From positions 1-34,089 of the forward strand of contig JAKAEN010000002.1 of NCBI GenBank assembly GCA_021818355.1: a stretch of 34,089 nt of DNA, in the 5' to 3' direction. Position 1 is the first letter of the stretch; every line of letters starts with the position of its first letter. Below, one piece after another: positions 27,009 to 33,560 of the stretch. Origin of the DNA: Actinomycetes bacterium (GTDB lineage: Bacteria > Actinomycetota > Acidimicrobiia > Acidimicrobiales > Acidimicrobiaceae). The notes below the pieces were generated by a model that saw only the letters and a list, made by a program, of their open reading frames with translations, was not told the origin of the DNA and did not search any database. A program made the translations under genes and the position numbers.

Positions 27009-27166
27009 GTTGAAAATGGCACTTCTGTTCTTGCCCCCTGCCTGCGGCACCTCAGCCGGAGTCCGGCCTGAGCAGGACATTGCGGACCGGGGTGCCCAGG
27101 AGGGGTGGCAACGGGTCGTAGGCTTGGCGGTTGCGGGGGCCAAGAAGTGGAACGGGGGCGATCGTT

Positions 27167-27736
27167 ATGGGTTCAGGCGGAGGGCGCTTGGTCGGATTGG
27201 GACGAGAAGAACTCGACCAGGAGCAGATGCGGCTTTACGACTTGATCACCGGAGGGCCGAGAGCGGGGGACCAAGGAGCTTCCCCGATCGTGGACGGGAA
27301 AGGCCGTCTGGCCGGACCGTTTGGGCCCATGCTCCTCAGCCCTGCAATCGGAGAGCCCCTCCAGGAACTGGGAGCGGCCATTCGTTATCGCTCCACGCTC
27401 CCGCCACGGCTCCGCGAAGGCGCGATACTGATGGTGGCGGCGAAGGAGGTGAGCGGATTCGAATGGTCCGCGCACCATGCCCTCGCCCGCGCCGCCGGCC
27501 TCACGGAGGCGGAGCTCGCCGAGATTGAGGCCGGGGGAATACCGGCCGGTAGCACCGGGGAGGAGCATGCCTTGTTCGAAATGGCCCTCCAGCTGGTGCA
27601 TGGGGGGGATATGGATGACTCCCGGTACCAAGAGCTTGCCGCTGCGACAAGCGAGAAGGCTCTCTTCGAGTTGTGCACGTTGGTCGGGTACTATCAAACG
27701 CTCGCCCTGGTGATGCGCCTGTTCTCCATCTACTGA
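27167..27736 (+). CDS. Carboxymuconolactone decarboxylase family protein
   Basis: A 189-residue alpha-helical protein of the CMD/AhpD-like superfamily. The core helix pattern LREGAILMVAAKEVSGFEWSAHHALARAAGLTE, cited here as residues about 85-117, is typical: the EWSAHH segment stands where peroxidase-type AhpD proteins have a CxxC pair, so this is the decarboxylase-like, non-redox type. The FELCTLVGYYQTLALVM end helix also fits. The actual reaction is unknown. I start it at the ATG at 27167 (GGGGG lies about 8-9 nt upstream); the frame is open from a TTG at 27131. It is divergent from fhaA. Confidence 0.85.
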   Translation: MGSGGGRLVGLGREELDQEQMRLYDLITGGPRAGDQGASPIVDGKGRLAGPFGPMLLSPAIGEPLQELGAAIRYRSTLPPRLREGAILMVAAKEVSGFEWSAHHALARAAGLTEAELAEIEAGGIPAGSTGEEHALFEMALQLVHGGDMDDSRYQELAAATSEKALFELCTLVGYYQTLALVMRLFSIY

Positions 27737-29207: not shown

Positions 29208-29786
29208 CTACGGCTCGAGACAGAAGGGTATCGAGTCGGAGTTGCCGGTGGGCCTCTCCGTGTTTCCCTCCGGGTCGAAGATCTTCACCCATGTCACCGA
29301 GGAGAACTGCTTGAGGATCGGGAAAATCTCACCGGCGACGGTCATCGTGGAGCCATTGCTGGCGCAGCTTCCCTCCAGGGTGACGTAAGCGATTCCGCTG
29401 TCTATATGCAGATGGGAGTACCCGGTGGCACCCGAGGTTATGAGCCTGAGACCCTCCTGCTGCTCTGCGGCCGTGGGTCCGGCGAAGAGGGCATCAAGGG
29501 CTCCGGCCGCCACCGCCGGAGGTTGCACCCGCCTGTCCACGGGTCGATACAGGGGCTCCTCGCCAGTCACGGCATGGGGCTCGTCGAGGAACCAGACCTT
29601 GACTCCCACCGTCACCGGCGGGTTGGTTTTCTGAGTGGTGGGCGGGATGGTCGAAGGTGGAGCGCTCGTCGATGGATTCGGCCCCAGCGTGGTGGTGGTT
29701 CCCGTGCCCGAGGGTGTCCCGCAGGCCGCAAGCAGCACAGCGCCCGTCAGAAGCCCGGCCATGGACATCCTGTTTATTCGCGACAT
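29208..29786 (-). CDS. GerMN-domain lipoprotein
   Basis: A 192-residue predicted lipoprotein with lipobox LLAAC (Cys22), then a Thr/Ser/Pro linker (TTTTLGPNPST and onwards) and a GerMN-type domain: VGVKVWFLDEPHAVTGEEP, the PAVAAGALDALFAGPTAAE helix, and a second half around IDSGIAYVTLEG and FSSVTWVKIFDPEG. GerMN domains occur in spore germination proteins and in actinobacterial envelope lipoproteins such as LpqB; the role here is unknown. I start at the ATG at 29786, where the signal peptide begins; GGAGG lies about 11 nt upstream. Its C terminus has a Cys near the end. It diverges from the DUF4389 gene. Confidence 0.83.
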   Translation of the reverse strand: MSRINRMSMAGLLTGAVLLAACGTPSGTGTTTTLGPNPSTSAPPSTIPPTTQKTNPPVTVGVKVWFLDEPHAVTGEEPLYRPVDRRVQPPAVAAGALDALFAGPTAAEQQEGLRLITSGATGYSHLHIDSGIAYVTLEGSCASNGSTMTVAGEIFPILKQFSSVTWVKIFDPEGNTERPTGNSDSIPFCLEP

Positions 29787-30030: not shown

Positions 30031-31419
30031 ATGAAGCGCAGGCCAACCATACTGATACTTGTGGCCGGTTTGGCGGCACTCGTCGCCATGTCATCTATCG
30101 CCGGCGCAGCCGCTCTCGCCTGGCTGATCGGTGTCCGAAGCGACTCGGCGGGCTTTCTGAACTCCTCCTCCTTCAGAATGAGCACGCCGGGTTATGCGAT
30201 CACGGCACCGATGGAGCTGACAGCGATCCGAGGCATTGAAACCGGGTCGCTGGGAACGCTTCGCATAACGGTGGCCTCCAATCAAGGGGTGCCCGTATTC
30301 CTGGGCATCGCACCTCGTCAGCAGGCCGATGCCTATCTCGCGGGAGTCGCCTCGGAACGCGTGTCGGGGCTGGTGATTTCGCCCTGGAAGGTCGTTACCC
30401 AAACCACCGCAGGAACTCGTGCCCCGGAGTCGCCCGAGCTGCAAGGGTTCTGGTCCTCGTGGGTATCCGGCCCCGGAGCGCGGACGCTCTCCTGGCCGAT
30501 ACGGTCTGGGGACTGGGAACTGGTGGTCATGAACGCCAACGCACAGGCCGGACTCTCCTTGGACACGCGCGTGGCCGTCAAGTCGGGCCTTCTGCCGCTT
30601 GCAGCCGGCGGTGCAGGTGTCTTCGGGCTCCTGCTACTCGTGGTTGCGGGGATTCTCCTGTACGCCGCCCTCCGCTCCCCGCGAGAGGCCGCCGAGCCGG
30701 TGGTGCCTTCCACCGCCGCGGGCACGTACCCCCTCCGCCTGCGCGGATCCCTACTCAATCCACCAGGGCGCGCGCTCTGGATCATAAAGTGGGTGCTGAT
30801 AATCCCGCATCTGCTCGCGTTGTGCCTTCTTTGGGCCGCAAGCGCCCTGGCAACCATCGCGGCCGGGCTGGCGATCCTCTTCACGGGCCGATACCCCAGG
30901 GCGATCTTCGATTTCAACGTAGGTCTGCTCAGATGGCAATGGCGGGTGGCCTTCTACTCGGTGGGCGCGTTCGCGACCGACCAGTACCCGCCTTTCAGCC
31001 TCGAGCCCGATCCGTCCTATCCGGCCGAGCTGGAGGTGGAATATCCCGAGCATCTCTCGCGCGGTCTGGTGCTCGTGAAGTCATGGCTACTCGCCATTCC
31101 TCACTACCTGGTAATCGGGATCCTTTCCGGCGGCTGGATCCTCGGGTGGGACGGCTGGCGCACCTTGGTTAGCGGCGGCCTGATAGGGGTTCTCGCGCTG
31201 GTCGCCGTCGTGGTCTTCGCGGTCAAGGGAAGCTATCCCACCAACCTCTTCGACCTCCTGATGGGGCTCAACAGGTGGGTGTTCCGCGTCTTCGCTTACG
31301 CTCTCCTGATGACCGACCGGTACCCTCCATTCAGGCTGGACATGGGCGGAGACGAGCCGCCGGCATCTCCCTCGGCCGCCCCTGAGCCCGCGGCACCCTC
31401 AGCCGGGGAGCCGCTCTGA
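30031..31419 (+). CDS. DUF4389 membrane protein with duplicated domain
   Basis: A 462-residue integral membrane protein. It has an N-terminal hydrophobic segment (about 5-35), a roughly 150-residue exported region, another membrane helix (about 185-210) and two DUF4389 units. The first contains IPHLLALCLLW, LFTGRYPRAIFDFNVGLLRW and TDQYPPFSL; the second has IPHYLVIGIL, the shorter GSYPTNLFDLLMGLNRW segment and TDRYPPFRLD. The RYP..lFdf..G..RW..R....TDRYPPF pattern defines the family. The repeat suggests internal duplication. The C terminus is Pro/Ala-rich. I start at the ATG at 30031 (purine-rich GAGGTGGTGGAT upstream); the ATG at 29980 is possible. Function unknown. Confidence 0.85.
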   Translation: MKRRPTILILVAGLAALVAMSSIAGAAALAWLIGVRSDSAGFLNSSSFRMSTPGYAITAPMELTAIRGIETGSLGTLRITVASNQGVPVFLGIAPRQQADAYLAGVASERVSGLVISPWKVVTQTTAGTRAPESPELQGFWSSWVSGPGARTLSWPIRSGDWELVVMNANAQAGLSLDTRVAVKSGLLPLAAGGAGVFGLLLLVVAGILLYAALRSPREAAEPVVPSTAAGTYPLRLRGSLLNPPGRALWIIKWVLIIPHLLALCLLWAASALATIAAGLAILFTGRYPRAIFDFNVGLLRWQWRVAFYSVGAFATDQYPPFSLEPDPSYPAELEVEYPEHLSRGLVLVKSWLLAIPHYLVIGILSGGWILGWDGWRTLVSGGLIGVLALVAVVVFAVKGSYPTNLFDLLMGLNRWVFRVFAYALLMTDRYPPFRLDMGGDEPPASPSAAPEPAAPSAGEPL

Positions 31420-31447: not shown

Positions 31448-32029
31448 TCAATCCCGGGCGGGGACGATCCCCAGCCTGATTGCCTCAGCGAGCACCCCTC
31501 GGCACTGCAGGCAGGTCAGGCGATCGAGAAGGACAGCGACACCCGCGTCGTCAGGCGCATAGGACGCCCCGACCAAGGAGGGATCGATGTTCAGACCGGC
31601 CCTGAGCGTGGCAACGGCACCGAAAACACGTTGGGACTCGAACGAGCTGTTGGTCTCCCAGCCGGTCGTGTTGACGCGCTCGAGCTTCTCGAACGGATCG
31701 GGATGATCGATCCCAAGCTCCCTGGCTACTATCCGCTTCGCTTCGCCGTCGAGGTCCGCCGGATCGAGAAGGCGCCCGCCGCAGAAGTCGAGAGTGGCCC
31801 GGCCTACGCCGGGCCTGAAGGCCGGCACCGGAAGCACCAGCTCTCCCCTGGAGACGACGATCACAATCAGCGAGTCGGTGTTCTCCACCCGCCAGTAGTC
31901 GATCTCGTTTCCCTCCGAGTCGAGTAAGCGCTCGCCGACCAAGGCCATCCATTGGTTGCGAACCTCCACGAGGTGCGACACCAGTTTCCAAGGGGCTTTC
32001 GGGACTGCCATTCCCGAGAATTTAGCCAT
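31448..32029 (-). CDS. Nudix-fold protein with degenerate catalytic box
   Basis: A 193-residue protein with the outline of an ADP-ribose-pyrophosphatase-type Nudix hydrolase: W-x-LVSHLVEVRNQWMAL, DYWRVENTDSLIVIVV, AFRPGVGRATLDFCGGRLLD, then a helix and ERVNTTGWETNSSFESQRVFGAVA. The Nudix box lines up exactly from Gly85 to Ile107, but three of the four glutamates are lost (Ala91, Ile100, Arg103; only Glu104 remains). It is probably not a metal-dependent hydrolase. It may instead bind a ligand or partner. The start is uncertain: ATG 32029 is used, and ATG 32071 (GGGAT upstream) is an alternative. It diverges from the MFS gene. Confidence 0.75.
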   Translation of the reverse strand: MAKFSGMAVPKAPWKLVSHLVEVRNQWMALVGERLLDSEGNEIDYWRVENTDSLIVIVVSRGELVLPVPAFRPGVGRATLDFCGGRLLDPADLDGEAKRIVARELGIDHPDPFEKLERVNTTGWETNSSFESQRVFGAVATLRAGLNIDPSLVGASYAPDDAGVAVLLDRLTCLQCRGVLAEAIRLGIVPARD

Positions 32030-32135
32030 CGGGCGAGAGTTGGGGTCAAATGGTGCCCACCGGACCGCCATTAGCTTGTATCCCGGAGCCCGCCGCGACG
32101 ATGGATCCGTTCGCCGGCGCGGCCGGGAAGCAAGG

Positions 32136-33560
32136 ATGCCGTTGCCCAGATCCACGCCAAGCCACGAGCGCAACCTGGCCCTGCTGGTGGCAGGCGCATT
32201 CTTCATGGAGTTCCTTGACGGCACGATTCTCACCACCTCGATTCCGGTCATAGCCAGGAGCTTGGGTGTGGGCGCCGGCCGCGCCGGGATCACGATCACC
32301 GCCTACATGCTGGTCATGGCGGTGCTGATCCCGCTCTCCGGATGGGTCGCAGAAAGATCCGGCACGCGCAGGGTCTTCATATCGGCGATCGCCATCTTTA
32401 CCTTGGGATCCCTGGCCTGCGCGCTGAGCGGAAGCCTCCTGGAACTCACCGCCGCGCGAATCGCGCAAGGGGTGGGGGGCGCGATGATGGTTCCGGTCGG
32501 ACGTTTGGCGGTGCTCAACTCTACGCCCAAGGAGAGGCTGGTCACCGCGATCGCCTACCTGACCTGGCCCGCACTCACCGCTCCCGTCATCGCCCCCCTG
32601 CTGGGAGGAGTGATCACCACGTACTCGTCCTGGCACTGGATCTTCATCATCAACGTCCCCCTCGGTGTGCTGGCCTTGGTTGCGGCCTGGTTCCTTGTTC
32701 CCGCCACCGGTTCTCGCGGCGGCCGTCCGCTCGACTGGACGGGCTTCGCCCTGGTCGGTCTGGGCCTTGGCATACTCGCTTACGCCGCTTCCGAAGCGGC
32801 GGGAACGCATCCCGGCTGGGGGGCCATAGCGGCGGAGACGCTTGTCGGAGCGATCTTCACCGTCGGCGCCGTAGCCCACCTGAGGCGGGCGCCAGACCCC
32901 TTGCTCGCGTTCTCTCCGCTCGCGACGGAGTCGTTCCGTGTGGCGCACACTGCGGGAAGCGTCTTCAGGCTGACGGTGAGCGCGGTGCCCTTCCTGCTTC
33001 CGCTCATGTTCGAGCTGGCCTTCCACTGGTCGCCCATCAGGGCGGGAACTCTGGTCCTTCTTCTTTATCTCGGCAATGTGGGCATCAAGCCTTTCACCAC
33101 GCCAATGCTCAGGCGGTTCGGTTTCCGCCCGGTGATGCTGGTGGCCACTGTAAGCCTCGCCGCTTCACTGCTGCTATCCGCGGCTGTGACATCACACACG
33201 TCTCTGCTGATCATCGGGGTACTGATGGTCTTTTCCGGGGCCGCCAGGTCGGTCGGCTTCACCGCGTACAACACCGTCGCCTTCGCCGACATAGATCAGG
33301 CGGGCATGAACCGGGCCAACACGCTCGCCTCCACGCTGCAACAGCTCGCCGCCGGATTCGGCGTCGCGCTCGGGGCGGTTCTACTCCAGGCGGCGCAAGG
33401 GTTTCGATCTCTGGAAACCGCCCTGGGCGCGGCCGGGGGAGGTCTCGACCCCTACCGCTTCAGCTTCCTGGCCCTGGCGGCCTTTTCCGTCCTCGCCGCG
33501 CTCGGGGCAGCTCGCGCCTCTTCCGAGATTGGTTTGGCCGCCCGCCCTCTGCGTGCGTAG
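32136..33560 (+). CDS. MFS exporter, DHA2 (EmrB/QacA-like) family
   Basis: A 474-residue major facilitator transporter that probably exports drugs or small molecules by proton antiport. The first helix has FMEFLDGTILTTSIPVIARS, typical of the 14-helix DHA2 subfamily; GWVAERSGTRRVF is the loop motif A region between helices 2 and 3, and the long RIAQGVGGAMMVPVGR and APVIAPLLGGVITTYSSWHW segments match motifs C and D-like parts of the family. Fourteen hydrophobic segments can be counted roughly. AAGG and GGGAAG precede the ATG at 32136; the frame is open further upstream without family similarity. The gene is divergent from the Nudix-like gene; no TetR or MarR regulator is adjacent. Confidence 0.88.
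   Translation: MPLPRSTPSHERNLALLVAGAFFMEFLDGTILTTSIPVIARSLGVGAGRAGITITAYMLVMAVLIPLSGWVAERSGTRRVFISAIAIFTLGSLACALSGSLLELTAARIAQGVGGAMMVPVGRLAVLNSTPKERLVTAIAYLTWPALTAPVIAPLLGGVITTYSSWHWIFIINVPLGVLALVAAWFLVPATGSRGGRPLDWTGFALVGLGLGILAYAASEAAGTHPGWGAIAAETLVGAIFTVGAVAHLRRAPDPLLAFSPLATESFRVAHTAGSVFRLTVSAVPFLLPLMFELAFHWSPIRAGTLVLLLYLGNVGIKPFTTPMLRRFGFRPVMLVATVSLAASLLLSAAVTSHTSLLIIGVLMVFSGAARSVGFTAYNTVAFADIDQAGMNRANTLASTLQQLAAGFGVALGAVLLQAAQGFRSLETALGAAGGGLDPYRFSFLALAAFSVLAALGAARASSEIGLAARPLRA

Follow-up and report, generated by a model that had tools for sequence, protein, structure and literature searches.

The window analyzed here is the whole stretch of 34,089 nucleotides of contig JAKAEN010000002.1 (assembly GCA_021818355.1, Acidimicrobiaceae), and all positions refer to it. 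Its minus strand carries a gene for a degenerate protein of the Nudix fold, in which most of the glutamates of the Nudix box have been replaced. As judged from sequence, the main finding is that this protein belongs to a conserved pseudo-Nudix family with a CxxC motif, and no description of the family was found in the open-licence literature searched (titles and the beginnings of abstracts). The features of the gene are the following.

31448..32029, minus strand: gene of the degenerate Nudix-fold protein, 193 amino acids (start ATG at 32029, stop TGA at 31448-31450)
31709..31777, minus strand: Nudix-box register, residues G85-I107 (E7 replaced by A, E16 by I and E19 by R; E20 kept)
31718..31720, minus strand: codon of E104 (box position 20), the sole box glutamate invariant in 14 of 14 aligned members
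31502..31513, minus strand: CxxC motif C173-L-Q-C176, located where the last predicted helix begins; neither Cys varies among the 14 members

The minus-strand translation of 31448-32029 is an open frame of 193 amino acids, while the plus-strand reading is ruled out by an internal stop. The frame can also be extended to a GTG at 32299, but in all four members from the genus an ATG or GTG start followed by AKFS (MAKFS in the window) is kept, and the start was set at 32029. A sequencing or frameshift error is ruled out by the three orthologues of other genomes, which have the identical register and start. Within the genus, the ratio of nonsynonymous to synonymous substitution rates (dN/dS) is 0.15-0.28 (NG86, six pairs). 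The gene evolves under purifying selection, which rules out a pseudogene.

How much of the Nudix box is left in this protein? The segment G85-RLLDP-A91-DLDGEAK-R99-I100-V101-A102-R103-E104-L105-G106-I107 aligns without gaps with GX5EX7REUXEEXGU, and positions 7, 16 and 19 of the box are A, I and R, with Glu at position 20. The translation thus confirms the register and the three replacements described in an earlier note on this DNA. We then aligned 14 full members of the family, of which four belong to this genus and six to two other families in the same order, while four are encoded on cyanobacterial plasmids. At position 16, all of them have I, V or T and none has an acidic residue, position 19 is R in 13 and K in one—a charge reversal with respect to Glu—and position 20 is E throughout. 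In contrast to these fixed positions, position 7 is variable (A, E, S, C, G, Q or K) and is still Glu in three of the 14. Within this alignment, the loss of E7 is not constrained, and the conserved traits are the loss of E16 and the charge reversal at E19. Two of the three glutamate losses noted earlier are thereby extended to the entire family, whereas the third is not a fixed loss. No orthologue with the full glutamate set occurs among the 14, and the catalytic set E16-E19-E20 is reduced to E20 in each of them.

Searched on its own, the window protein matches no Nudix model in Pfam (E up to 1) or NCBIfam, and its best match among the PDB sequences reaches only E ~0.2; a Zn-ribbon match at residues 83-94 (E 0.12) was dismissed as noise. 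The homology was therefore shown via its relatives. The profile of eight family members matches Thermus NDX2 (2yvm, E 1.5e-5) and other hydrolases of adenosine diphosphate (ADP)-ribose and ADP compounds, box on box and without gaps, and a ten-member profile matches 2yvm with E 3.2e-5. Since the eight-member profile aligns gap-free on solved Nudix ADP-ribose pyrophosphatases, the box register is more than chance. Among nine members scanned, PF00293 was above its cut-off in four, below it in one, and without a match in four, including the window protein. NudE is the best NCBIfam model for all seven non-window members scanned, far below the cut-off of NF008736 (169 bits): the best score is 31 bits, in the L007 member, and the window protein has no match. 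The guanosine diphosphate (GDP)-mannose mannosyl hydrolase model NF011963 (cut-off 146 bits) reached 17.9 bits (E 0.002) in the L029 member and was listed for none of the other seven members scanned.

The AlphaFold model of the window protein, built from a three-sequence alignment, has a mean predicted local distance difference test score (pLDDT) of 75.3 and a predicted template modeling score of 0.71, with residues 1-25 unsure. Its best Foldseek matches are the ADP-ribose/ADP-compound hydrolases 5i8u (E 5e-9) and 1vhg (E 1.2e-8). The top VIA-align row is 2w4e (Z 15.3, root-mean-square deviation (rmsd) 2.6, 126 residues aligned), and NudE 1vhz follows with Z 14.8, rmsd 6.7, and 166 residues aligned; rows within Z 1 of each other were treated as ties. 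For NrtR 3gz6, the alignment covers 128 residues of the model. The predicted structure contains the beta-grasp Nudix fold of about 130 residues, and the window protein is predicted to have a Nudix fold of the ADP-ribose type. The earlier proposal that the fold had been retained is thereby borne out, both by the profile search via the relatives and by the structure prediction, in which an absence of the fold could have emerged and did not.

Residues R72, D81, E104, N120, Q133, C173, C176, R177 and E182 are invariant in all 14 members, the GG loop is nearly so, and the invariant columns—32 in all—span two phyla. R72 corresponds in the alignment to the Arg in the QYR/QMR segment of the ADP-ribose enzymes. 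C-terminal to the box, E182 is the only column that is acidic in at least 11 of the 14 members, and no column is His in at least seven. The family thus conserves no His base, and no base in the loop that usually carries it in ADP-ribose Nudix enzymes. These residues bear on the possibility that the protein has remained an enzyme but works by a changed mechanism, in which one metal would be held by E104 and a GG-loop carbonyl and the base would lie elsewhere, comparable to GDP-mannose mannosyl hydrolase. The invariance of R72, D81, E104, N120, Q133 and E182 and the near-invariance of the GG loop are in keeping with such an enzyme, as is the fact that the top structural match, 2w4e, is itself a Nudix hydrolase; according to an excerpt of PMC5389931, GDP-mannose mannosyl hydrolase is active despite its lost box residues. 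In contrast, the family conserves neither a His nor an acid in the presumed base loop, position 19 is charge-reversed in every member, and the mannosyl hydrolase model is matched by a single one of the scanned members, far under its cut-off. We consider a changed-mechanism enzyme unlikely.

The family is distributed patchily. Orthologues with 63-72% identity occur in three of the 11 other genomes of the genus, and members were found in four of 42 genomes of the window's family and in two of 395 in the class sample. In the first of the other two families of the order, two of 32 genomes carry the gene (G619 and G1054), and in the second, five of 35 (G643, G1064, G1066, G1077, and a fragment in G1065). 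The phylum, order and class searches covered samples, with at most eight candidates scored per genome. In the window's family, seven further genomes pass E 0.001 (E 5.7e-8 or weaker), and the six proteins retrieved from them have full boxes. A scan of the genome contigs with patterns from the genus alignment gave two loci, on the contigs of the G003 and G011 matches. The cyanobacterial search covered plasmid records and yielded homologues on four plasmids, with 88-91% length coverage and 35-41% identity, annotated as NUDIX where annotated; a Bacteroides record with 41% coverage (E 0.01) was left out of the homologue count. The G1065 fragment (L065:5119-5397) comprises the C-terminal 92 codons of a family protein in an open frame. 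It is a broken or misassembled copy and was excluded from the 14-member alignment.

In the tree, the 14 members group on a single branch (100/100), separate from 19 ordinary Nudix proteins that come from the same and related genomes. E-x-x-E-E is kept in all 19 of the latter, and the whole box in 16 by pattern match. The stem of the pseudo-Nudix branch is long (3.08 changes per column), and because of this the tree does not fix the exact sister of the family. As far as the alignment and the tree can tell, the family is small, monophyletic and well conserved, and common to Actinomycetota and cyanobacteria. A viral link was rejected: no relative was found in the viral contigs and, for the window protein, none in phages; the Kovacikia protein gave a single match, weak and partial. 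The BFVD fold search returned Nudix-type proteins and unnamed ones, and PHROGs matched one of ten members, as MutT/NUDIX. A defense link was likewise rejected; PADLOC PDC-S07 matches three of the 14 members weakly (best E 2.7e-4), and not the window protein. The truncated copy in G1065 and the patchy distribution would suit a relic that is being lost and has been retained by chance. Such a relic is at odds with the dN/dS values within the genus and with the invariant columns shared across two phyla. This explanation is already disfavored, and we regard it as highly improbable.

What, then, does the protein do? We lean, with moderate confidence, toward a standalone ADP-ribose-pyrophosphatase-type Nudix-fold protein that lacks pyrophosphohydrolase chemistry and is retained as a predicted ligand-binding sensor or adaptor. 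The cleft would still bind a nucleotide-diphosphate-like ligand by means of the Arg and the loop-helix that are kept, and the bound ligand would not be hydrolyzed. A first guess for this ligand, suggested by the fold class only, would be ADP-ribose or another molecule derived from nicotinamide adenine dinucleotide (NAD). The ligand-bound state may then be passed to a partner, with the protein acting as a sensor or an adaptor, and the CxxC motif may make the sensing redox- or metal-dependent. Several points weigh on the other side. A single metal could still bind, because E104 and the GG loop are kept, and some box-depleted Nudix proteins are enzymes of another mechanism, with GDP-mannose mannosyl hydrolase as the example in the same excerpt (PMC5389931). 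Moreover, four of the nine scanned members lack any match to a Nudix model in Pfam at E up to 1, and the structural model rests on three sequences, with the five models ranging from pLDDT 75 to 42 and only two exceeding 60. On balance, the term pseudoenzyme, already used in the earlier note, is well supported as a prediction by the conserved loss of E16 and E19, the purifying selection and the Nudix fold, and its proposed role as a “ligand sensor or scaffold” is a reasonable suggestion. The family probably binds a nucleotide-like signal, perhaps a redox-linked one, rather than cutting it.

The neighborhoods of the cyanobacterial members bear on the redox aspect. In three of the four plasmids, psbA lies 98, 346 and 1780 bp from the family gene. 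The chance of finding psbA within 1.8 kb in at least three of four plasmids is ~8e-5 (1, 1, 2 and 1 psbA copies per plasmid), a figure to be read with the caveat that psbA was chosen after the loci had been viewed and that Pseudanabaena accounts for two of the three hosts. The linked psbA genes (L008:7357-8439, L009:5621-6730 and L010:5875-6957) encode D1 with Ala80, Leu158 and Ala286, while two unlinked plasmid psbA genes read Gly, Phe and Thr at these positions. Ala80/Leu158/Ala286 is the triad of the D1′ type, for which a literature search gave no confirmation. Two of the psbA loci, L008 and L009, also contain an ArsR-type regulator and a nitronate monooxygenase near the family gene, and heme oxygenase, bchE and a rubrerythrin-domain protein (AcsF-like by eye) occur once each at the cyanobacterial loci. 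According to an excerpt of PMC4500134, the D1′ isoform and the chlAII cluster have similar, microoxic expression profiles.

Other loci show genes of thiol or sulfur chemistry. Upstream of the Kovacikia member, a DsbA-like gene seems to extend over two overlapping frames (L009:4220-4898; second half by eye), probably by an assembly frameshift. In G643, a thioredoxin frame (L038:938-1627, minus) follows directly 3′ of the pseudo-Nudix gene in the same orientation, the frames overlapping as called, and a Fur-family gene is convergent (L038:348-800, plus). In further actinobacterial loci, the L062 neighbors include a polysulfide-reductase-like NrfD, a molybdopterin oxidoreductase, and a rhodanese-domain pyridine-nucleotide disulphide oxidoreductase, and those at L064 include TauE and a rhodanese-metallo-beta-lactamase. 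A rhodanese occurs within 5 kb in two of 11 genomes against ~0.2 expected by hand arithmetic, which is statistically weak, and TauE in one of 11. Among the named neighbors of the window gene and of the G619 and G1054 genes, no thiol/sulfur redox gene was seen.

These neighborhoods, at L038, L062, L064 and L009 as well as beside the low-oxygen D1′-type psbA of three cyanobacterial members, together with the invariance of C173 and C176, where the last predicted helix begins, would fit a protein whose working part is the CxxC motif, with the Nudix fold as the scaffold for a thiol-disulfide or metal-binding redox function. The neighbor theme, however, was chosen after the loci had been viewed, its rhodanese and TauE instances are few, it is absent around the window gene, and the cleft residues R72, D81 and E104 are just as invariant as the cysteines. 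We find it improbable that CxxC is the working part. A further proposal, which we put forward as speculative and doubtful, combines the two sites: the proteins would be redox-gated pseudo-Nudix sensors, in which the cleft reads an NAD-derived, ADP-ribose-like nucleotide and CxxC reads the thiol or oxygen state, and the cyanobacterial members would belong to a low-oxygen photosynthesis set beside D1′ psbA, ArsR-type regulators, nitronate monooxygenase and tetrapyrrole genes. Given the neighbors and the invariant CxxC, a redox role for the family seems worth testing.

The surroundings of the gene in the window comprise the following features.

32030..32135: divergent intergenic region of 106 bp between the Nudix gene and the gene of a major facilitator superfamily (MFS) transporter
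32136..33560, plus strand: divergent DHA2-type MFS transporter (MdtD/EmrB-like, below curated cut-offs)
30031..31419, plus strand: convergent membrane protein with two DUF4389 stretches, a neighbor in only two of four genus members

Farther away lie a Germane-domain (GerM-like) protein (29208-29786, minus) and a carboxymuconolactone decarboxylase-family protein (27131-27736, plus), both ordinary. The pseudo-Nudix protein had been proposed to serve the adjacent MFS exporter. Of the 12 genus genomes, the four that carry the Nudix gene are also the ones with an orthologue of the transporter (86-88% identity); the remaining eight have only paralogues with at most 34% identity. The four carriers are each other's closest relatives by HisS (82-87%), and since they form one close HisS group, the co-occurrence is explained by shared ancestry. 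G004 is also near by HisS (77-87%, two pieces), yet it lacks both genes. The G004 HisS is split over C253 and C104 with overlapping ranges and with 77% versus 87% identity, which suggests a mixed bin. No MFS homologue lies nearby at the ten loci outside the genus. The partnership was therefore rejected, as the linkage is confined to one subclade, and the proposed service to the exporter is not supported. On the gene order seen in the plasmids, the low-oxygen D1′-type psbA neighborhood appears to be the better lead. If this link also holds on cyanobacterial chromosomes, then the family would become a new candidate for a part in the response to low oxygen.

Public plasmid records name these proteins “NUDIX hydrolase” or “NUDIX domain-containing protein”, and the conserved residues argue against the former name. 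The closest proteins by profile and fold are NudE and the ADP-ribose pyrophosphatases (1vhz, 2yvm, 1v8i and 2w4e), which are hydrolases with box glutamates; the best NudE score in the family is 31 against a cut-off of 169 bits. GDP-mannose mannosyl hydrolase is likewise a Nudix protein with lost box residues. It is a carbon-attacking enzyme that uses a His base, and this His has no conserved counterpart in the family. In the bacterial regulators NrtR and AraR, two to three Glu are replaced and the Nudix domain is used for ligand binding, as stated in an excerpt of PMC4666351. The window protein resembles them as a bacterial Nudix domain with replaced box glutamates. Unlike them, it has no DNA-binding domain C-terminal to the Nudix domain: it ends with the Nudix domain, as the last predicted helix closes at residue 185 of 193, and it has no helix-turn-helix match in Pfam.

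The nearest parallel in box pattern is the NUDT9-H domain of human TRPM2. An excerpt of PMC6461439 reports that this domain, with the box RILRQE, binds ADP-ribose without hydrolysis, and that NUDT9 with the box RILGEE is inactive. Both NUDT9-H and the pseudo-Nudix protein have a Nudix fold of the ADP-ribose type and read R-I-x-x-(not E)-E at positions 15-20, with E16 replaced by Ile and E20 kept. TRPM2 NUDT9-H, in contrast, is a domain of a vertebrate cation channel, whereas the protein described here is bacterial, stands alone and has a CxxC motif, and the losses are independent. The likeness lies in the box pattern only, and TRPM2-like sensing of ADP-ribose would be an analogy. With its fixed charge reversal at position 19 and its invariant CxxC, the family may provide a bacterial counterpart to the change from enzyme to sensor in TRPM2, one that is small, soluble and suited to direct binding tests.
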